From Acidihalobacter prosperus (GTDB lineage Bacteria > Pseudomonadota > Gammaproteobacteria > DSM-5130 > Acidihalobacteraceae), in contig NZ_JQSG02000001.1 of assembly GCF_000754095.2 (NCBI RefSeq), positions 186,001 to 250,000 of the forward strand: DNA of 64,000 bases. Reading direction: 5' to 3'. The notes beneath the pieces were generated by a model, which saw nothing but the letters and a program-made list of their open reading frames with translations, had not been told where the DNA came from and searched no databases. Each line of letters starts with the position of its first letter. Positions within the stretch are counted from its first letter, which is position 1. A program made the position numbers and the translations under genes. This document shows positions 8,936 to 36,915 of this stretch, one piece after another.

Positions 8936-9645
8936 CGCGACATGGGGGTGGCTTGTGGCGTCGCCGCCGGCGTTTCCAACCACTCCAGCAAGGCTTCCGG
9001 TTGCTGCAGCTCGGCGTCGGCGCCCCAGGCCTGCGGGCATTGGTCTGAGTCGATGTATCCCCAGCGTGCGATCAGGGTGTGCATGCCCGCCGCGCGTCCG
9101 GCCGCGATGTCCCGCTCTGCGTCGCCGAGGTAGCAGCAGGCGCCTGGAGGCAGTCCGCAATCCGCAGCCGCGTGCAGCAGCGGCGCGGGATGCGGTTTGC
9201 GCTGCGGGAGCTGATCGCCGCTGACCAGGCAGGCAATGCGTCGTTGCAGTCCGAGCGCCTCGATCAGCGGCCTGCTGAGGAATCCCGGCTTGTTGGTGAC
9301 AATGCCCCAGACGAGACCGCGTACTTCGAGGGCGTCGATGACCTCGGGCATGCCGGGAAAGAGTCGCGTTTGCTGTGCCAGGTTTTCGGCGTAGATCGCC
9401 AGAAAGCGCGCCCGCAGAGCCTCGAAACGCGCCTCCGCCAGCCCGTCGCCGAAACCGATGCGCACCATGGCCGTGCTGCCGTGCGAGACGTGATCGCGTA
9501 TCGCGGCGAGGGGCAGTGCGCCCAGGCCGTGCTCGCGCCTGAGGTCGTTGAGCGCCGCAGCCATGTCCGGGGCGGTGTCCAGCAGCGTGCCGTCGAGGTC
9601 GAACAGGACGCCGCGAATGCCGCGCGGATTACTGGACGACGGCAT
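8932..9645 (-). CDS. gph: Phosphoglycolate phosphatase, HAD family
   Basis: HAD hydrolase of 237 residues that dephosphorylates 2-phosphoglycolate, formed by DNA repair and, in autotrophs, by Rubisco oxygenation. HAD motif I is DLDGT with nucleophile Asp16 and acid/base Asp18, motif II is VTN at 116-118, the Lys is K150 in QRKPHP, and motif IV is GDAERD at 174-179. It overlaps the ubiG end by 17 bp, as in other gammaproteobacteria, where ubiG-gph-yciK is a common string. An alternative substrate such as N-acetylmuramate 6-phosphate (MupP) is possible, because Pseudomonas MupP is encoded at the same place. Confidence 0.88.
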
Positions 9646-10339
9646 GGACGAGGTAATTCACCGAGACATCGGTGGACAGCGAGTAGGCGTGGGTCAGGGG
9701 ATTGAAGTGCATGCCGGCGATGTCGACAAGATTGAGGCCGGCGTGGCGGATGGCTCGGTCGAGTTCGGAGGGGCGGATGAAGCGCTGGTACTCATGCGTG
9801 CCGCGAGGCAGCAGCTTGAGCAGGTATTCGGCGCCGACGATCGCGAACAGGAATGATTTCGGGTTGCGGTTGAGCGTGGAGAAGAACACGTGCCCGTCCG
9901 GCTTGACCAGCGCCGCGCAGGCGCGCACCACCGATTCCGGGTCGGGCACGTGTTCGAGCATTTCCATGCAGGTCACCACATCGTAGCTGCCGGGCCTTTC
10001 GGCTGCGAGCGCTTCCACGGTGACCTGGCGGTACTCGATCTCGACGCCCGTTTCCAGGCCGTGCAGACGGGCCACGGAGAGCGGTGCCTCGCCCATGTCG
10101 ATACCGGTGACCTGGGCGCCTCGGGCGGCCATGGATTCGGACAGAATGCCGCCGCCGCAGCCCACGTCGAGCACCGTTTTGCCGACCAGGCCTGCAGCGT
10201 GCTGTTCGATGAATCCCAGGCGCAGCGGGTTGATCTCGTGCAGCGGCCGGAATTCGCCGTCGGCATCCCACCAGCGATGGGCCAGCTCCTCGAATTTGCC
10301 GATCTCCCGGGGGTCTACGTTGCCTCGTGGTTCGTTCAT
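9629..10339 (-). CDS. ubiG: Ubiquinone biosynthesis O-methyltransferase
   Basis: SAM-dependent methyltransferase of 236 residues catalysing both O-methylations of ubiquinone synthesis. The SAM loop is DVGCGGG at 58-64, with the acidic GIDMGE strand after it, and the N-terminal [11 protein letters not shown] and C-terminal [13 protein letters not shown] are typical UbiG signatures. Its end overlaps gph by 17 bp, so the two are cotranslated. It is divergent from the quinone reductase gene. Confidence 0.96.
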
Positions 10340-11455: not shown

Positions 11456-12784
11456 TCATGCTCGCTCCGGAGCGGCAATGCGCGCGGCCCAGGCGGCGGC
11501 ATTGGTCATGATCTCGCGGCCGTCGAGCTGCGTCAGCTCGCCGTCGACGAGTTTGGCCTGGCCCGCAATCCATGCATGGCTGACGGCTTCGCGTCCGGCC
11601 GCGTAGACGAGGTGGGAGACGGGATCGTAGACCGGTTGGGTTTCGATGCGTGCGAGGTCCACGGCCACCAAGTCCGCGGCCTTGCCAACCTCGATCGAAC
11701 CGATTTCCTCGCCGAGGCCCAGCGCGCGCGCGCCGGCCAGCGTGGCCATTCTGAGCGCGGCATGCGCGGGCAGCGCGTCTGCACGGCCGGCCACGCCCTT
11801 GGCGAGCAAGGCCGCGGTGCGCATCTCGTCCCACAGATCCAGATCGTTGTTGCTGGCGGCGCCGTCGGTACCCAGCGCCACGTTGATCCCGGCGTCAAGC
11901 AGGCGCGCGACAGGGCAAAAGCCGCTGGCGAGCTTGAGATTGGACTGCGGGCAGTGCACGACGCTGGCGCCGCGTGCCGCAAGCAGCGCGATTTCATCGT
12001 CCTCTAGCTGGGTCATGTGTACCGCGACCAGATTCGGACCGAGCAGTCCGAGACTGTCCAGGCGGGCAAGGGGACGCATGCCGTGTTTGGCCACGTGCTC
12101 GTCGACTTCATGGCGGGTTTCGTGGACATGGATATGCACCGGCCGGTCCAGTTCGTCGGCGAGATTGCGGATTCGAGCAAGCGGCGCATCCGACACGGTG
12201 TAGGGCGCGTGCGGCGCGAAGCAGGCGCTGATCAGGCCTTCGCCCTTGTGGGCATCGAATACCTCGTCGATGCCGCGGGCGATGTATTCGTCGGCGTCGC
12301 GCGCCCAGGCCGAGGGAAAATCGACCACGATCATGCCGATGCTGGCGCGCATGCCGAGGGTCGCGGCCACGCGGGCGGTGACCTCCGGAAAGAAATACAT
12401 GTCGTTGAAACAGGTGGTGCCGCCGCGCAGCATTTCGGCGATGGCGAGGCGCGTGCCGTCGCGCACGAATTCCGTCCCCACCCAGCGCGCCTCCGTCGGC
12501 CATATGTGGGACTGCAGCCAGGTCATCAGCGGCAGATCGTCGGCGATCCCGCGCATCAGGCTCATCGCCGCGTGCGTGTGCGCATTCACCAGGCCGGGAA
12601 TGAGCGCGTGCTCCGGTAGCTCGTGATGTTCCGCCGCACGGTATTTCTGGGCCGCTTCCGATGCGGGTAGAATATCCACGATGCGGCGCCCGCGTACGGC
12701 TACGGCATGGTGTTCCAGCACCACGGCGTCGGGCTCAACGGGAATCACCCAGCGGGCGCTGATCAACAGGTCGACGGTTTCCAT
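11456..12784 (-). CDS. mtaD: 5-methylthioadenosine / S-adenosylhomocysteine deaminase
   Basis: Amidohydrolase of 442 residues. Metal ligands are NAHTH (His69, His71), a His in HIHVHET, and GTDGAASNN, all typical of the MtaD/TrzN-like deaminases. It converts methylthioadenosine to methylthioinosine in the Pseudomonas-type methionine salvage route and may also act on S-adenosylhomocysteine. It is divergently arranged with mtnA (64 bp between starts), the same pairing as in Pseudomonas, which supports the methylthioadenosine role over guanine or triazine deamination. Confidence 0.9.
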
Positions 12785-29256: not shown

Positions 29257-30654
29257 TTACTCGGATGCGCCCTGTGATGGGGCGCTGAGTTCGACAGGCG
29301 ACGCTGCGCGTGCCTGCAACGCCTCTTCGATAGCGTGTTGCAGGCGCCTCAGGGTTTGCGGGGCATGCTGGCCGAGCGCAACGGATTCGATCATGGCCGA
29401 GCCGGAAAGCGGTGGCGGGTGGCCAAACTGGCGTTTGAAACTTTGCGCAACGTGTTGCGCAAGCGCCGCCATCCGCGCTTCGTCTTCATGGGCGTCGGCC
29501 ATCAGCTTGGCAACCGAAGCCTCGATGTCGCGCAGGGGTTTGCGTTCATGGCGCTCGTATAGATTTTCCAGCGTGAGGATGATGGAGCGTGACGGTTCCG
29601 CCGGATATCCGTTGTGTTCGAGGTATTGATACAGCATGCGATCAATCGGGAAAGGCAGCGTGCCGAAACGGTGAATAAACGCGCTGATCAGTGCGCCGAT
29701 GCCGGCCGCCATGTCATCCTGGTTCAGATCGGGTGTGCTGCGTACGGCTTCGACGACATGTGACAGCAAGTCGCCGGCCCGCGTGCGACCGAGCGCGTGT
29801 GGCTCGGATACCGGGATGCGGGATTCGGCGGTGCCGATGGAGGCTCGGTCGACGGCAGCCGCCAGGCTGCCCGTGTTGGCCGGCAGATGATCGCTGGCGA
29901 GGTGGTCGAGTTGTTGTGCCAATTCGTAGAAACATAAACTTGCGGGCGCATCGTAGCGCAGGAAAATCACGGGCCGTTGTATGCGCACGGCGGTGGCGAC
30001 GGTTTCGTCGGATACGACATGACCGATCGCGTCGACATGGCATTGCAGATATTTTTCCACCGCGCCCTTGAATCGACGGAATACGGCGCGAAACTCCTGG
30101 GCATCCGCAACCTGATTCACGATTACCTGAATCGGGGTATGGACGCCTTCGCGGCGCATCACCCTGATCAATGAAAAGGCGTTTGTCAGCGAAGTCGGTT
30201 CCGGGGTGATGACCAGCACGACCAGCGCCGCCGCACGAAGAAAAAAGACGACATCCTGGCTCGCACCCGCGGCCGTGTCCACCAGTAGATAATCGAAATC
30301 CCGCTCCAGTGAGAACAGGGCTTCGCTCAATCGTTCGCGACGGGTTTCGTCCAGATCCGTCCCGTTGGCGATGCCGGACGCGGCTGGCACAATGGAAATG
30401 TTGCCGGGCGCCTTCAGCAGGATGTCGTCGATGGGGTGTCGTCCATCGAGCACCTGTTCGAGGGTAAGGGTGGGGCGCAGCCCCAACAGGATGTTGACGT
30501 TGGCCTGATTGGTGTCCGCATCGAACAGGCAGACGCGGCGGCGACGGCTGGCCAGTGCGACGGCCAGGTTCACGCTGATGTTGGTCTTGCCGACGCCGCC
30601 CTTTCCGCTGGTGACGGCAATGACCTTGGCCCGGATGGGTAACGCTGAGCTCAT
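29257..30654 (-). CDS. MinD/ParA-family ATPase with C-terminal extension (FlhG-like)
   Basis: 465 residues. The N-terminal half is a deviant Walker ATPase: SGKGGVGKTNISVNLA at 16-31, DADTNQANVN (Walker A'), and LLVDTAAG. It resembles FlhG/MinD-type switch proteins that localise on the membrane or count structures. The second half, about residues 265-465, is a helical extension I do not recognise, possibly the region that binds partners. No minC, minE or flagellar gene is near. It lies 9 bp after the GGDEF-EAL gene and forms the third gene of a signalling string, so it may act downstream of that c-di-GMP enzyme. Confidence 0.75.
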   Translation of the reverse strand: MSSALPIRAKVIAVTSGKGGVGKTNISVNLAVALASRRRRVCLFDADTNQANVNILLGLRPTLTLEQVLDGRHPIDDILLKAPGNISIVPAASGIANGTDLDETRRERLSEALFSLERDFDYLLVDTAAGASQDVVFFLRAAALVVLVITPEPTSLTNAFSLIRVMRREGVHTPIQVIVNQVADAQEFRAVFRRFKGAVEKYLQCHVDAIGHVVSDETVATAVRIQRPVIFLRYDAPASLCFYELAQQLDHLASDHLPANTGSLAAAVDRASIGTAESRIPVSEPHALGRTRAGDLLSHVVEAVRSTPDLNQDDMAAGIGALISAFIHRFGTLPFPIDRMLYQYLEHNGYPAEPSRSIILTLENLYERHERKPLRDIEASVAKLMADAHEDEARMAALAQHVAQSFKRQFGHPPPLSGSAMIESVALGQHAPQTLRRLQHAIEEALQARAASPVELSAPSQGASE

Positions 30655-30663
30655 CCTGGGACT

Positions 30664-32838
30664 CTAGCGACTTTCGGCCTGGACGGTGACGTCGACGTTT
30701 CGGCTGATGGCGGCTTCCAGAAGATGCGTGACCGCTTCGGTGGGCAGGGGGCGGCTGAACAGATACCCCTGCATGCCATGACAGCGTTTTTGCGCCAGCC
30801 AGTCTTTTTGCAATTCGGTCTCGACGCCCTCGGCCACGATCGTGAGTTCCAGGCTGTGCCCCATCGCGATGATGGCATCGATGACTGAGCGGCCCGTTCG
30901 CTCGGGCACGATATCCTGAACGAACGAGCGGTCTATCTTCAGCGTATGGATCGGCAACTGGTGCAGATAACTCAGCGAGGAATAGCCGGTACCGAAATCG
31001 TCAATGGCGATACTGATGCCGTGACGAGCGAGTTCGGTCAGGCGCTGTGTGGCGATGTTGATGTCTTGAACGATCAGGTTTTCGGTAATTTCCAGCTCGA
31101 TGCGTTCGCCGGGGAGCTGATGCCGTTCGAGCGCCTGCGTGATTTCTCCAACCAGGCTGCTACGTTTGAGGTCGAGTGCCGAAAGATTGATGGCCATCCG
31201 TGGCGGCGCGATGCCGGCGTCGACCCAGGCCTTCATTTGACGCACGGTGGTATCGATGACCCACTCGGTCATATGGCCAATCAGGCCGACTTCCTCGGCC
31301 AGGGGGATGAAATCGCCGGGATAGAGCAGGCCGCGCTCCGGGTGCTGCCAGCGAAGCAAGGCCTCGACCCCGCAAACCGTTTGTCCCTGGGCGTCGAATT
31401 GGGGTTGGTAATGGATTGCGAATTCGTGATTGGTCAGTGCGCGGCGCAATCCCATTTCAAGATCAAGATGCTGGGAAAACGTCGATTCCATGCGCGCCGT
31501 GTAGAAGGAATAGCCGCCACGCGTGTCGTTTTTGACGCTGTACATCGCGATGTCGGCATTTTTGATCAGTTCCTCGTCCGAGTTGCCGTCGCTCGGGAAC
31601 AGGGATATGCCGATGCTAGCACCGACGAACAGTTCGTGCTGGTCGATCAGAAAGGGCGGTGTGAGGGACTCGATGATCTTGCGGCCGACGGTGGCGGCAC
31701 TTTCGCGATGGGTGAGTTGAGGCAGCAGAACCACGAACTCATCGCCACCCAGGCGCGCCAATGTGTCGCCCTCGCGCAGACAGGTTTGTATCCGGCGCCC
31801 CACCGCGCGTAGGAGCTGATCGCCGATCACGTGTCCCAGCGTGTCGTTGACGATCTTGAAGCGATCGAGATCGATGAACATCACGGCGACCATTTGCCCC
31901 ACGCGCCTTGCCTGGGCGATGACCATGTTCAGCCGATCCTTGAACAGGGTGCGGTTAGGCAAGCCGGTCAGCAAGTCGTGATAGGCCTGGTAGCGGATGA
32001 TGGCTTCGGCCTGCTTGCGGCTCGAAATGTCGCGCGCCACGCCATAGGTGCCCAGGTGGCGGCGTGCATTGTCATGCGCGCCGCTGGTGTTGGCATAGAG
32101 TCCCGTGGCATTGAGTTCGACGCACATGACGCTGGTGGCGAAACTCTTGTGCGAATGGCCCTCGCGGTCCTTGGTTCGTAGTCGCAACTCGAGATTGTGG
32201 GTGGCCCGGGTGCCGGTGCGTCGTTCGTTGAAGGCGTATTGCGCCAGTTCAAGATCGTCCTCATGCACCAGGGTGGTGTAGTGCTTGCCGATGAGTTCTT
32301 CGCGGGTAAAACCCAGCAGTTGATGGACACGCTGGTTGACGAAGGTGAAATGGCCTTCCTCGTTGAGGACATAGATGATGTCTGGAGAGGTGTTGACCAG
32401 GAAGCGGTGGAGTTTCTCGGAGTTCTTGAGCCGCTCCTGAATGTCGACCGCATCCGACTTGAGTTTTCTTCGCTCTATCGTGTTTTCGATGCGTTTGATC
32501 AGCTGTTCTGGCGCATAAGGCTTGAGCAGAAAATCATGTGCACCGAGTCTGATCGCCTCGACCGCAGTTTCGAACGAGGCCTCGCCGCTGATGACGATGA
32601 TGTCTGTGCGGATATTGTTTTCGGCTACGTAACGCATGATGCGCTGGCCGTTGACATCGGGCATTTTGAGATCGATGAGCGCGATGTCGAAGCTGTCCGT
32701 GCGCAATTGTTCTATCGCCGCGCGGCCGTCATTCGCCGTGGTGATCGCATAGCCGTGCAGGGCGAGCAACTGTTGCAGGCTGTCAAGCAGCCTCGGTTCG
32801 TCGTCGACGGCGAGTATCTTGGCGGTATGTTGTGGCAT
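30664..32838 (-). CDS. Response regulator with PAS, GGDEF and EAL domains
   Basis: 724-residue c-di-GMP turnover protein. Receiver domain 1-125 with phospho-acceptor Asp56, PAS domain about 135-270, GGDEF at 364-368 with an intact RxxD inhibitory site just before it, and EAL at 492-494 with the following LLRW. Both catalytic signatures are complete, so synthesis and breakdown are both possible. The ATG at 32838 starts the receiver directly; a longer frame of 24 codons has no homology. The neighbouring HDOD-histidine kinase, which lacks its own receiver, is the likely phosphate donor. Confidence 0.88.
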   Translation of the reverse strand: MPQHTAKILAVDDEPRLLDSLQQLLALHGYAITTANDGRAAIEQLRTDSFDIALIDLKMPDVNGQRIMRYVAENNIRTDIIVISGEASFETAVEAIRLGAHDFLLKPYAPEQLIKRIENTIERRKLKSDAVDIQERLKNSEKLHRFLVNTSPDIIYVLNEEGHFTFVNQRVHQLLGFTREELIGKHYTTLVHEDDLELAQYAFNERRTGTRATHNLELRLRTKDREGHSHKSFATSVMCVELNATGLYANTSGAHDNARRHLGTYGVARDISSRKQAEAIIRYQAYHDLLTGLPNRTLFKDRLNMVIAQARRVGQMVAVMFIDLDRFKIVNDTLGHVIGDQLLRAVGRRIQTCLREGDTLARLGGDEFVVLLPQLTHRESAATVGRKIIESLTPPFLIDQHELFVGASIGISLFPSDGNSDEELIKNADIAMYSVKNDTRGGYSFYTARMESTFSQHLDLEMGLRRALTNHEFAIHYQPQFDAQGQTVCGVEALLRWQHPERGLLYPGDFIPLAEEVGLIGHMTEWVIDTTVRQMKAWVDAGIAPPRMAINLSALDLKRSSLVGEITQALERHQLPGERIELEITENLIVQDINIATQRLTELARHGISIAIDDFGTGYSSLSYLHQLPIHTLKIDRSFVQDIVPERTGRSVIDAIIAMGHSLELTIVAEGVETELQKDWLAQKRCHGMQGYLFSRPLPTEAVTHLLEAAISRNVDVTVQAESR

Positions 32839-32961
32839 GGGACGGGTGTTGTTGTAGTGCCCGGCTAGGGTGAATGAGTCGCGGCTGCAATATATGCGCC
32901 AGGCGCGCATCCACAGGTGTTCATATCATGGGCATGATCAAGCCCTGAATTACGCCCGAGG

Positions 32962-35100
32962 TCAAGCATTGGGTAGGCGTCTGGGCAGCAGTATTTGCAT
33001 GCGGGTACCTTGTGTGGGGTTGCTGCGGCAGGTGATGGTGCCGTGCAGTGCATCCACGAGCTTCTTGGTGATCGACAGACCAAGGCCGGCGTGGTGGCCA
33101 CCTTTGGTGCTGATGACGGGCTGGAACAGGGTGGCGAGTACTTGCGGCGGCAACCCGGGGCCGTCGTCTGCGATGTCGATGCCGACGTACGCCTGGTTGC
33201 CGATGTAGATGTAATCGGCGGTCGTGAGGGTGATGGTTTGTCCGGTATTCAGGGCTTCCGCGGCATTTTTGAGCAGATTGACCAGTATCTGCTTAACACT
33301 GTTGTGCGCGGCCTTGATGACGGGAATCGAAGTGTCCAGGTGGGTCATCAACCGGATGCCCGCGGGATCGATCAGGGTGGGTTTGAGGAGCGTGATGACA
33401 TCGTTCGCCACGGCATTGACGTCGACTTCGCCGCGCGATTCCTGCGCATGCCCGATCTCGCTCAGACTGCGAAGCAAGGCACCGACGCGGCCGATTTCCT
33501 CGTCGATGATCCGGATGTCGTCGGCAGTTTGCGGATGCCCATCGGCGATATGGCGGTCGAGTATGCCCAGATAGTTCTTGATGATGCTCAACGGGTTCTT
33601 GACCTCGTGGATAACGCTGCGGATCTTGAGATCCTGCTCTTCGGCGCGTGCCCTCAAGGTTTGCTCGGCCGTCTGCTTTTGCCGGCGCTGCGACGCGATG
33701 GCGTCGCCGATCTCGCGAGCGAACAGTTCGAGCAGTGCTCTGCGAGCGTTCAAGCGGGGCTCGTCGATGGCATTCAGGCCGATGATCGCCGCGCCGAGAA
33801 TACGTCCCTCGCCGGCGAGCGGGAGCAGGCTCATGCCCTGCGTGCCGAGCAGTTCCAGAATTTCCAGGTCGAGGACGCTGGCCGGAGTGGTGTCGTCGGA
33901 AACGACCGTTTGCCAGGGAAAGTGGTCGGCCGATTGTCCCAGGGTCAACGTGCGACCGACGAGGCTTCGCTCGGAAGGCAATTTCAGCATCAGTCCCGCC
34001 CACTCGTCCGTGCCGCCGGCATGTCCGACTGCGAGCTGCCCTGCGGAGTCGATCAGAAAATAGCCGACCTGACCCAGACCAAAGAGCAGTTGACTGGCCA
34101 AGCTGGCGGTGGCAAGCAAATCGTCATCTCGCTCGCTGTCGCTCAACTGCCGCCGGACCGCAGCCGCAATCTGCCAGTGTCCCAGCCGCTGCTCAAGTTC
34201 GCCCTGCGCGCCCGTCCTCGGCGGCACCGGGTCGTCCGTTGCCGGTGAGCGGCAATCGAGACCAAGCGCGTGCGCCGTTTCCAGGGTCTCGTCGACGGCA
34301 GAGGTGTGCAATTCCTCCAGTAGACTGGGTATCAGTCCGAGGATCCGGTCTCCGGCTACGAGACCGGTTGCGGGTGGTATTTGATCGTTGGCGCTCATGC
34401 GGCTGGCAACCGCGACCACTCGGACCAGGTGATGGGCTTCGCTTAACTCGTCGGTATGGGCATGGTGAAAGCGGACGGCGTCGGCGAGTGCGCCGCGTCG
34501 GCCGGCCCTCTGCAGCATGAGTCCGCCCAGCGTCGCATGATCGATGCCGAAGAGTTGGGTTTCGCGGGATATCAGCGTCTCGGGGACATCGCCGGCCTGA
34601 TCGAGCAGCGTGTCGTACTGCTCGGGTTCGGCCGTGATAAGGCCGATCTGGCCGATGCCGCTGAGCAGGCCGGCCAGATAGGCCTCGTGCACCGAATGAT
34701 AACCGCTCAGTTCCGCTATTTTCCCGGCGAGGACGGCGGTCAGCAGGGCATCGTGCCAGAAGCGTCGATGGCGATGCGGATGGCTGGCTAGCGAGCGGTC
34801 GACAAACTGATAGGCTGCAGCCGTGAGGGCAAGCGTGCGCAGGGTGTTGGTGCCGAGCAGCATCAAGGTCTGTTCGAGATTCAAAGGCCGCGCCGACGGC
34901 GACCGGCCGTAGGCAGGGCTCGCAGCTATCGCCACCACGCGCGCCGCCAGCGCGGCGTCCTGGCGTACCAGATCGGCGATTTCGTGCATGTTGCGATCAC
35001 TCGATGCGCAGGCATCGAGCAGGCGGAAAAGTATCTGCGGCAAGGTGGGCAGGCAGGTGATATCGATGGCATTTAGCTTCGCTGTCTGCACGCGATTCAT
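32962..35100 (-). CDS. HDOD-GAF-histidine kinase hybrid sensor
   Basis: 712 residues and no membrane helix. Residues about 10-210 form an HDOD domain (PTLPQILFRLLD ... QDAALAARVVAIAASPAYG), about 310-470 a GAF-like domain, then a dimerisation helix with phospho-acceptor His498 (HEVKNPLS) and an HATPase domain (NLLKNAAEAL; DDGPGLPP; GLGLSI). HDOD domains usually stand in signalling scaffolds, and fusion to a full kinase is less common. It is transcribed ahead of the receiver-GGDEF-EAL gene (123-bp gap) and probably phosphorylates it. The input is unknown; a cytoplasmic signal is expected. Confidence 0.85.
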   Translation of the reverse strand: MNRVQTAKLNAIDITCLPTLPQILFRLLDACASSDRNMHEIADLVRQDAALAARVVAIAASPAYGRSPSARPLNLEQTLMLLGTNTLRTLALTAAAYQFVDRSLASHPHRHRRFWHDALLTAVLAGKIAELSGYHSVHEAYLAGLLSGIGQIGLITAEPEQYDTLLDQAGDVPETLISRETQLFGIDHATLGGLMLQRAGRRGALADAVRFHHAHTDELSEAHHLVRVVAVASRMSANDQIPPATGLVAGDRILGLIPSLLEELHTSAVDETLETAHALGLDCRSPATDDPVPPRTGAQGELEQRLGHWQIAAAVRRQLSDSERDDDLLATASLASQLLFGLGQVGYFLIDSAGQLAVGHAGGTDEWAGLMLKLPSERSLVGRTLTLGQSADHFPWQTVVSDDTTPASVLDLEILELLGTQGMSLLPLAGEGRILGAAIIGLNAIDEPRLNARRALLELFAREIGDAIASQRRQKQTAEQTLRARAEEQDLKIRSVIHEVKNPLSIIKNYLGILDRHIADGHPQTADDIRIIDEEIGRVGALLRSLSEIGHAQESRGEVDVNAVANDVITLLKPTLIDPAGIRLMTHLDTSIPVIKAAHNSVKQILVNLLKNAAEALNTGQTITLTTADYIYIGNQAYVGIDIADDGPGLPPQVLATLFQPVISTKGGHHAGLGLSITKKLVDALHGTITCRSNPTQGTRMQILLPRRLPNA

Positions 35101-35130
35101 GTCGCTCTGCCCTTGCCGTTTTTACGACTG

Positions 35131-35164
35131 ATTATAGGTTTATCATCTAACTGTGCTGATTATA
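35131..35164 (-). promoter_or_regulatory. Two TATAAT boxes upstream of the HDOD-kinase gene
   Basis: On the minus strand two perfect TATAAT hexamers occur, at 35164-35159 and 35136-35131, 28 bases apart. Neither has a strong -35 box (best matches TTCTGC and TCAGCA at 17 bp). They are the most AT-rich part of a 145-bp gap and are likely start sites for the signalling operon. Confidence 0.45.
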
Positions 35165-35245: not shown

Positions 35246-35971
35246 TTAGCTGAACCAGTTGTCCCGCCGACGCCGTGCGATCCGCGGCAGCAGCAGACCG
35301 ATCACCAGTCCACCGAGTAATACCCCGCCGCCGGCAAGGAACCACTGTATGTTGGCGCGCCGGCTGAGGGTGGCATTTGCCTGGGTCAGGATATCGATAC
35401 GCTGTTTGTCTGCTTTTTGTTGCTCACTCAATGTCTTATTGATGTTTTTGAGTGCGATTGCCTGTTGCGAGGTGGCAACCAACGCTTGGTATTTCCGGTT
35501 CATGGAATCGAGTTGGGTTTGTAATTGCTGCTTCGCCTGTTCCAGCTGCGAAAGCTGGGTTTTGGCCTGAGCGAGTGAGTCGCGGCTCTTGCTCAGCGCC
35601 TCATCCGCCTGCGTGAGTTGTTGTTTCGTGGCCGCCAGACGCATGGCGGCCGGCGGCGCGGTCATCAGATAACGGCTGAGCACCCAGCCCTCGCTGCCGT
35701 CCCCGAGTCGCACTTGCGTGTAGCCGTTGCCCGTGGTCTTGAGCGTTGCGACGCGATCGCCCGTGGCCAGCATTTTCAGTATCTGGTACTGCAGCCCGGG
35801 ACCGGAACGCAGCGTGACCTTGATCTGATCGGTGATGTACAGCGTACCGCTGGCGGGGGAGGCGGACGTCGGATCGGGCACAGTGCCGGTATCGGTCGCG
35901 GCAGAGGCGGTATCCGCAGCGGACAGGGCGGTGGCAAGCAACAGGCTAATGGCGGTCAGGCCGAGGCGCAT
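35246..35971 (-). CDS. SH3-domain membrane protein (YgiM/TIGR04211 type)
   Basis: 241 residues: signal peptide (1-24), bacterial SH3 domain (about 45-108, with VTLRSGPGLQYQILKML and GWVLSRYL), a long coiled coil (about 112-205), and one C-terminal transmembrane helix (about 210-230) ended by basic residues. The layout matches E. coli YgiM. The protein is thus anchored at its C-terminus with the SH3 part in the periplasm, perhaps touching peptidoglycan. The ATG at 35971 has GGGAG nine bases upstream; the longer frame reads antisense through the tRNA gene and is false. Confidence 0.85.
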   Translation of the reverse strand: MRLGLTAISLLLATALSAADTASAATDTGTVPDPTSASPASGTLYITDQIKVTLRSGPGLQYQILKMLATGDRVATLKTTGNGYTQVRLGDGSEGWVLSRYLMTAPPAAMRLAATKQQLTQADEALSKSRDSLAQAKTQLSQLEQAKQQLQTQLDSMNRKYQALVATSQQAIALKNINKTLSEQQKADKQRIDILTQANATLSRRANIQWFLAGGGVLLGGLVIGLLLPRIARRRRDNWFS

Positions 35972-36066
35972 GCAGTGATTCTCCCAGGGGGTTGTAACGT
36001 CCGGCAAGGGGCGGAAAACACCTCGGATACTAGCATAGCCACCCATCTGCCTTGCCCGGATCACTG

Positions 36067-36075
36067 TGCTAGACT
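36067..36075 (+). promoter_or_regulatory. Extended -10 promoter for tRNA-Arg
   Basis: TGCTAGACT matches TGn plus a four-of-six -10 box. The expected start falls about 3 bases before the mature tRNA 5' end, and the bases between are GC-rich (GCGCGCACC), as in promoters under stringent control. The -35 region is weak. Confidence 0.45.
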
Positions 36076-36084
36076 GCGCGCACC

Positions 36085-36161
36085 GCCCCGGTGGCACAGA
36101 TGGATAGCGCGGCCCCCTCCTAAGGGGCAGGTCAGAGGTTCGAATCCTCTCCGGGGCGCCA
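36085..36161 (+). tRNA. tRNA-Arg (anticodon CCT)
   Basis: A full cloverleaf: acceptor GCCCCGG pairs with CCGGGGC, anticodon stem GCCCC/GGGGC encloses the loop CTCCTAA with anticodon CCT, and the T arm is AGAGG-TTCGAAT-CCTCT. The CCA end is encoded (36159-36161). It reads the codon AGG, which should be rare at this base composition. No integrase or direct repeat is visible beside it. Confidence 0.97.
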
Positions 36162-36237
36162 TCTCTTCCCCCGCTTTTGCGCAAGCGCCCCAGGCGTCGC
36201 TTCGTGGGCGCGGACGCTTTACCACGGCCGCCTGCGC

Positions 36238-36915
36238 TCATGGCCCTTCCTCTCTGCCCTGCCGGAAATAGGCGATCAACGCGGCTATCTGGATTTCGTC
36301 CAGGGGATTCTGCAGCGATATCCTCGGGGTACCGTGTATGCCGGTGATCATGCGTGCCGCGAATTCGGCCGGGCGCATCGTTTTGGCCCAGTCGAACAGG
36401 TCAGGCGCCGGCAATTCGGCCGTGGGATTGCGATAACGATGGCAGGCGGCGCAGCGTTGGTCGTACAGCCGCCTCGCCCAGCGGATTTGTCCACGCGTGG
36501 CGCCGGCGCCGTCCATGTCGTGCAGGTACAGCGGATAGGCGTGTATCAGGTGCTCCAGCTGGTGAGTGAATGCGGTCCAGTGTCCTTCGATGAACGCCGC
36601 GCGCAGTGCCGTCGCGCCGTCGACCGCCATCGTTTCCGCAGAGGCATCCTCTTGGAGATACCGGCGCGCCTGCAGGGGCAGCTGATTCAGATCGCCCATG
36701 AGTTTCTGGTGCAGGCCGCGCCGCTGCGGCGTTTGCGTCTTGGCTCGGCGCAGTCGCACGAAATCGCCCCGGATGACGAGGAGCACGGCGGCGAAATCGC
36801 GCGCCCGCGCGCCCGCGCGCATCGCATCCGCCTGGGCAGCGCCCGGGAGGGGCGCCGCCAGACAGATCGCCAACAGCAGTCGCCAGGCGCAGACCCGGAA
36901 CGGGTGGTAACGCAT
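36238..36915 (-). CDS. Periplasmic monoheme cytochrome c
   Basis: 225 residues with a signal peptide (1-29) and one heme c site, CAACH at 155-159, in a C-terminal class I-like domain (about 145-225); a Met in EFAARMITGIHG may be the sixth ligand. The N-terminal 120 residues are helical and not recognised. It is the last gene of the sulfur operon, 16 bp after the rhodanese, and is the only electron carrier there, so it may accept electrons from sulfur chemistry in the periplasm. The ribosome site is weak. Confidence 0.8.
   Translation of the reverse strand: MRYHPFRVCAWRLLLAICLAAPLPGAAQADAMRAGARARDFAAVLLVIRGDFVRLRRAKTQTPQRRGLHQKLMGDLNQLPLQARRYLQEDASAETMAVDGATALRAAFIEGHWTAFTHQLEHLIHAYPLYLHDMDGAGATRGQIRWARRLYDQRCAACHRYRNPTAELPAPDLFDWAKTMRPAEFAARMITGIHGTPRISLQNPLDEIQIAALIAYFRQGREEGP

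Follow-up and report, generated by a model that had tools for sequence, protein, structure and literature searches.

Histidine kinases paired with regulators of the REC-GGDEF-EAL type (REC, receiver) are already known. A histidine kinase gene located in front of a REC-GGDEF-EAL gene has been described for Acidithiobacillus, and the accessible part of that report mentions neither an HDOD input nor a MinD-like ATPase for this pair (PMC6416229). ATPases of the ParA/MinD type that are each dedicated to one cargo have been described as well. According to the available portion of the respective article, these cargos are the chromosome, the divisome, the carboxysome, the flagellum and the chemotaxis cluster, and a VirC1-like ATPase is found near conjugation genes (PMC10241942). 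Here we analyzed a locus of Acidihalobacter prosperus in which a histidine kinase gene, the gene of a regulator for cyclic diguanosine monophosphate (c-di-GMP) and an ATPase gene follow each other. The window, i.e. the whole analyzed stretch of 64 kb from an A. prosperus contig (genome G000), carries the three genes in this order on the minus strand at positions 29257-35100. The gap between kinase and regulator gene amounts to 123 bases and that between regulator and ATPase gene to 9 bases. ORF (open reading frame) calls and Pfam reproduced the coordinates, the orientation and, apart from the GAF part of the kinase, the domain composition that had been proposed in an earlier sequence-only reading of the window.

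Like the cargo-dedicated ATPases, the ATPase of the locus is an extra family member with a gene neighbourhood of its own. However, the cargos named in the portion of PMC10241942 at hand include neither a pilus nor a c-di-GMP unit. The titles and abstract openings retrieved from the open-access literature contained no account of the three-gene unit or its ATPase clade. Our analysis suggests that the unit represents two-component c-di-GMP control with an FlhG paralogue of its own, and that this combination is new. To our knowledge, there is no dedicated ParA/MinD-type positioning ATPase for cargo such as a pilus or a c-di-GMP hub. If true, such cargo would have a dedicated positioning system which is wired to c-di-GMP through gene linkage. 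This would bear on how second-messenger signals choose the building site of a surface machine, and it is testable in one organism.

The known proteins closest to those of the locus show both likenesses and differences. FlhG and FleN share the ATPase domain (profile positions 8-255) and are the closest solved relatives of the ATPase by sequence and fold. In contrast to them, the window ATPase belongs to a separate clade, lacks the DQAxxL motif and has a longer C-terminal half, which carries 40-residue repeats in some of the clade members, and its gene adjoins kinase and c-di-GMP genes. A distinct clade would be added here beside FlhG/FleN, and since members of this family are commonly interpreted as flagellar, such genes may be misnamed in annotations. 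FimX is characterized by the domain order REC-PAS-GGDEF-EAL with degenerate GGDEF and EAL motifs. The window regulator shares this order and a possible link to the type IV pilus, whereas its catalytic residues are intact and its GGDEF-EAL part reached 154 bits with FimX (4j40) compared to 568 bits with 4rnh. The latter, named 'Motility regulator' of P. aeruginosa and presumably MorA, is among the closest solved GGDEF-EAL parts together with MucR and PA0861, which we take to be RbdA. These proteins are membrane sensors, whereas the window regulator has a soluble receiver-PAS input and an adjacent kinase gene.

Conservation of the three-gene locus

The distribution of the kinase was analyzed with a profile of 12 kinases in a sample of 369 genomes of the class and in 398 genomes sampled from the phylum, G000 among them. 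Orthologues were separated from other matches, as 18 of the 369 class genomes scored above 290 bits and the next match at about 170 bits. In total, the kinase set comprised 24 genomes: the 18 of the class sample, five new ones of the phylum sample and one congener (G001) from a search among relatives.

The regulator gene adjoined the kinase gene in 23 of the 24 genomes; in G102 the contig does not extend beyond the kinase. The ATPase gene was located next to the kinase-regulator pair in 17 genomes belonging to 8 families. It was orientated on the same strand in G000-G004, with G003 being a family-level relative, and divergently in 12 genomes (G018, G038, G052, G102, G141, G348, G226, G221, G253, G428, G491 and G526). 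The linkage was thus found in two gene orders and therefore survived rearrangement. G221 was still counted here, even though a glutamine synthetase gene intervenes. In G253 a 176 amino acid ORF comprising only the C-terminal part of the ATPase (L073 4427-4957) lies beside the whole kinase-regulator pair, and in G038 the ATPase gene is split by an insert. In G102 the ATPase is distributed over the edges of two contigs, one with the N-terminal part and the other with a further matching part, and the kinase lies in two frames.

Co-occurrence pointed in the same direction. Among the 369 class genomes, 18 carried the kinase and 22 the ATPase, and 15 were shared compared to 1.1 expected (p ~7e-19). 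Counted by family, 9 were shared of 11 with the kinase and 15 with the ATPase (p ~5e-10), a count which removes phylogeny only partly. Mirror-tree correlations of 0.92-0.94 may reflect shared descent only. The neighbourhood comparison that had been proposed as a check of the sequence-only reading therefore did not find the genes scattered in relatives. Their persistence side by side in several unrelated families makes a joint role as one signalling unit probable. From this comparative evidence we are confident that the three genes constitute one conserved functional unit and not a chance string.

In G059 and G103 the clade ATPase is situated beside an HDOD protein without a kinase part, as seen by Pfam in G103 and by BLAST in G059. 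The receiver-like part of the neighbouring GGDEF-EAL protein, which was recognized by alignment only, lacks the Asp. The joint absence of the kinase part and the acceptor Asp in these putative orthologues is what a phosphotransfer pair predicts.

As a separate observation, the kinase gene and the ATPase gene of G038 each contain a copy of a short repeated element (L037 ~9589-9778 and 11904-12091). The kinase frame of 791 amino acids stays open, and the ATPase frame is broken. The element has at least 41 matches in this genome, 94-100% alike, from 40 scored of 372 candidates. One copy is located between two pieces of a PilB-family match (G038:C1:1844635-1844852).

Kinase, regulator and proposed pathway

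The kinase gene (32962-35100, minus strand) encodes a soluble protein of 712 amino acids which consists of HDOD, GAF-like and HisKA/HATPase parts. Pfam matches were obtained for HDOD (1.2e-38), HATPase_c (3.4e-19) and HisKA (1.3e-5), the HisKA score of 25.6 bits being just below the cut-off of 26.9. The HDOD and kinase parts of the proposed HDOD-GAF-histidine kinase were hence recovered, and the part between them is better described as GAF-like, as Pfam finds no GAF in the window kinase itself. GAF_3 matches 5 of 12 kinase orthologues at a lax threshold (best 9.5e-7). Furthermore, a low-confidence structure model of the kinase resembles one named GAF structure (5w10) and also 3oov, presumably a GAF domain as well. 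A receiver is not among the Pfam domains of the kinase, as had been noted. The most hydrophobic 19-residue stretch reached 1.36 on the Kyte-Doolittle scale, leaving no likely membrane helix, and the kinase is therefore regarded as soluble, in line with the first description. His498, Glu499, Asn612, Asp645 and Gly647 were invariant in an alignment of 12 kinase orthologues, from which the G038 kinase was excluded for its insert, and the window kinase possesses the H-box His, the N box and the G box of two-component kinases.

The regulator gene (30664-32838, minus strand) encodes 724 amino acids from the start MPQHT at 32838, 24 residues inside the longest ORF, which begins at 32910. Provided that this start is used, the numbering of His498 and Asp56 in the sequence-only reading is right. 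Pfam matches of the regulator were Response_reg, PAS, GGDEF and EAL. Three groups of residues were invariant in all 13 aligned regulators: Asp12, Asp13, Asp56 and Lys106 of the receiver, Arg355 and Asp358 of the I-site together with the GGDEF motif, and Glu492, Asn551, Glu583, Asp613, Asp614, Lys634, Glu670 and Gln690 of the EAL domain. The acid pocket, the Asp and the Lys of a two-component receiver are accordingly present, and all catalytic motifs, including the EAL metal and loop-6 residues, are intact as was claimed. In a wider alignment the receiver Asp was found in 15 of the 16 regulators shown; the ORF of the sixteenth (G352) starts downstream of it. Over 11 genomes the regulator was the best conserved of the three proteins, with a mean difference of 0.49 compared to 0.64 for the kinase and 0.61 for the ATPase. 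On sequence grounds, we infer that the regulator has both diguanylate cyclase and phosphodiesterase activity.

In the proposed mechanism, the autophosphorylation of His498 would be set by a cytoplasmic cue through the HDOD/GAF part. The phosphate would then move from His498 to Asp56 in the receiver of the neighbouring regulator, and we consider such phosphotransfer between the predicted partners very likely. The phosphorylated regulator would shift the balance between making and breaking of c-di-GMP, which would change locally or globally. The FlhG-paralogous ATPase would contribute spatial or assembly-state control as a membrane dimer which is driven by ATP and places, counts or switches an envelope machine. 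We consider a spatial or assembly role of the ATPase somewhat more likely than not. The envelope machine under the c-di-GMP regime would most likely be the type IV pilus, and the whole scheme with this machine is offered as the best, though tentative, explanation. Of the route from kinase via phosphotransfer and c-di-GMP to a cell structure, as outlined in the sequence-only reading, the part from kinase via receiver to c-di-GMP fits the invariant residues; the individual steps, including any positioning by the ATPase, are predictions.

The ATPase and its possible cargo

The ATPase gene (29257-30654, minus strand) encodes 465 amino acids with Pfam matches to AAA_31, ParA and CbiA and a Walker A motif (KGGVGKT). 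The best fold matches of its model, FleN and FlhG, cover the ATPase domain only. The NCBIfam MinD models gave 138.6 bits (cut-off 201.75) and 103.4 bits (cut-off 212.9), and a septum-placing MinD was rejected, both scores being below the curated cut-offs. Another gene of the genome, located at G000:C6, resembles MinD when named by eye.

The unit's ATPases grouped in one clade beside FlhG in a tree built from the ATPase domain (support 0.96), and a second tree with more fragments gave 0.99. The rooting of the trees is not firm, and the second one holds duplicate rows and was built with the G012 fragment dropped. The ATPases of G038, G428, G491, G526 and further ones of family f72 are outside the trees and were assigned by BLAST or profile. 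G168 was taken out of the ATPase set, as its match groups with FlhG, and the G080 fragment was retained with an uncertain tree position. As judged from these trees, the ATPase is a member of a distinct clade beside FlhG.

The DQAxxL motif serves the activation of FlhF. It was found in none of the 19 clade members whose N-terminus could be read, the window ATPase included, in 5 of 7 FlhG proteins of unit-bearing genomes (those of G003 and G004 lack it) and in 10 of 18 other FlhG-like proteins. Given the last of these counts, the motif does not define all FlhG. A second gene in G000 groups with FlhG, carries DQAxxL and is located on contig C2, the same contig as FliG and flagellin; by eye, its neighbours look flagellar and chemotactic. 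The ATPase has FlhG and FleN as its nearest solved relatives and differs from FlhG in its grouping in the tree, in the missing DQAxxL motif and in the location of its gene, which is not in a flagellar cluster as judged from the six locus proteins scanned.

The C-terminal extension announced by the sequence-only reading is real, spans approximately residues 260-465 and is partly a tandem repeat. The ATPase of G059 contains four tandem copies of a repeat with an exact length of 40 residues, and that of G052 contains three plus an incomplete fourth one; a profile was built from both. It matched the window ATPase at residues 319-352 (7.7 bits) and 360-392 (8.1 bits), the best of 340 shuffles reaching 5.2; a third candidate at residues 400-414 with 2.6 bits was within the noise. 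The C-terminal part from about residue 318 to 465 (29260-29703, minus strand) is thus delimited as a degenerate tandem repeat with a period of about 40 residues, predicted to be helical. Helix pairs predicted at 312-347, 352-387 and 392-428 in a low-confidence model share this period. The structure models are weak, with mean predicted local distance difference test (pLDDT) values of 54 and 50 and alignments of three rows. Matches stronger than those of the window were obtained in G002, G003, G004, G103 and G038. No match was found in 7 FlhG controls, nor in 8 of the 23 ATPase members searched (G348, G226, G221, G347, G157, G428, G526 and G491). As these 8 members give no match, the 40-residue repeat seems to be optional in the clade. 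The proposal that the C-terminal half contacts the regulator fared less well: this half is short or free of a detectable repeat in several members, and it is therefore improbable that the whole family depends on it as a contact.

As target of the unit the type IV pilus is our first choice, a weak one, because pilus genes adjoin the clade ATPase gene in two other lineages. In G059 two genes of the PilT/PilU family are located within three genes of the ATPase gene. In G075 and G204 the ATPase gene is adjoined by tfpB, the product of which scored above the curated TfpB cut-off, and this neighbourhood recurred in 6 of 7 further species of the genus, the contig of the seventh ending at the site. 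TfpB is a pilus extension motor in Acinetobacter baylyi according to the accessible part of PMC11656802. Several findings weigh against the pilus and against the unit as a whole. The PilT/PilU neighbourhood was seen in one genome, and the related G103 has a sigma factor gene there on a short contig. Among 13 additional genomes of one family, the tfpB neighbour was confined to a single genus; of six matches from other genera five were without it and in one the contig ends. PilB scored above cut-off in 16 of 18 kinase genomes compared to 252 of 369 overall (one-sided p 0.04, phylogeny uncorrected) and was set aside as pilus support because it is widespread anyway; in G038 the PilB match contains five stops. 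In the window itself, none of the genes seen next to the unit was a pilus gene. The EAL part of the G252 regulator looks degenerate. Finally, flagellin and FliG are missing from four kinase genomes (G038, G102, G080 and G267; G000 and G018 served as positive controls), and in these the ATPase gene is broken in G038, lies in two pieces at contig ends in G102, where it may still be complete, is represented by an uncertain fragment in G080 and was not found in G267. This may be due to chance or assembly, or may hint at a flagellar role; it lowered our estimate for the pilus and raised that for the flagellum and, slightly, that for a loosely linked ATPase. It is doubtful, though conceivable, that the c-di-GMP switch under a phospho-relay has its own ParA/MinD-type ATPase for placing or switching either type IV pili or the c-di-GMP hub itself.

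Under a flagellar function, the ATPase would be a second FlhG/FleN that adjusts the number of flagella or serves as antiactivator of a sigma-54 activator of the FleQ type, and the c-di-GMP protein would determine the ligand level of FleQ. The nearest solved relatives, among them FleQ-FleN complexes with and without c-di-GMP, and the presence of flagellin in 14 of the 18 class-sample kinase genomes agree with this, as does the state of the ATPase in the four genomes just mentioned; G102, however, keeps both ATPase pieces without flagellin or FliG. Since the ATPase belongs to a separate clade and lacks DQAxxL, and since G000 already possesses another FlhG, we ranked this unlikely possibility second, bearing in mind that DQAxxL is not universal among FlhG-like proteins. 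If the ATPase localized the signalling proteins themselves at a polar c-di-GMP hub, effects on appendages would be indirect. The most constant link of the ATPase is indeed that to HDOD and GGDEF-EAL proteins, which also holds for the kinase-less G059 and G103, and no single appendage gene is constantly adjacent to it. Against such a hub, which we likewise hold to be unlikely and place third, stand the tfpB and PilT/PilU-family neighbours in the two other lineages and the fact that the clade ATPase has no kinase-regulator pair in its vicinity in G250 and G347. The latter genomes, together with family f72, would be expected if kinase and regulator were the actual pair and the ATPase a loosely linked neighbour with an unrelated role. 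Six of the 24 kinase genomes (G157, G252, G267, G352, G644 and G710), apart from G080 where adjacency could not be judged, also lack an adjacent ATPase; a clade ATPase is present elsewhere in the genome of G157, and none was found by a genome-wide search in G252, G267 and G352. Adjacency in two gene orders and 8 families and the excess of shared genomes over expectation make this explanation improbable, and the type IV pilus keeps its tentative first place.

Three neighbourhoods are described here in their own right. In G059 (L067 3470-8825) a HEAT/protein-kinase protein, the two PilT/PilU-family proteins and an FHA protein are encoded directly before the clade ATPase. In the genus of G075 and G204 (L072, L074 and L112-L117) the clade ATPase gene lies between a soluble lytic transglycosylase gene and the convergent tfpB, an arrangement conserved across species. 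The regulator of G252 (L080 6129-8612) is longer, with 827 amino acids, and its GGDEF-EAL part is only 29% identical to that of the window.

Upstream region and adjacent genes

No flagellar family was detected by Pfam among six proteins scanned at the window locus. Two TATAAT boxes precede the kinase gene (35131-35164), as had been observed before; a letter search located them at 35164 and 35136 of the minus strand and found TATAAT nowhere else on either strand of the window. Both boxes are present in the congener G001 and the second box alone in G002. A sigma-70 scan of the window reported no promoter at the boxes. The second box is followed by a small inverted repeat (35101-35135), the stem of which is kept with different letters in G001 and G002; folding of this hairpin was no better than that of shuffles in one of three relatives (G002).

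A plus-strand tRNA-Arg gene (CCT) at 36085-36161 overlaps with an SH3-domain ORF (35246-36241) in the 5' part of the latter. The family match of this ORF begins only at residue 135, and its true start is therefore probably located downstream of the ORF start.

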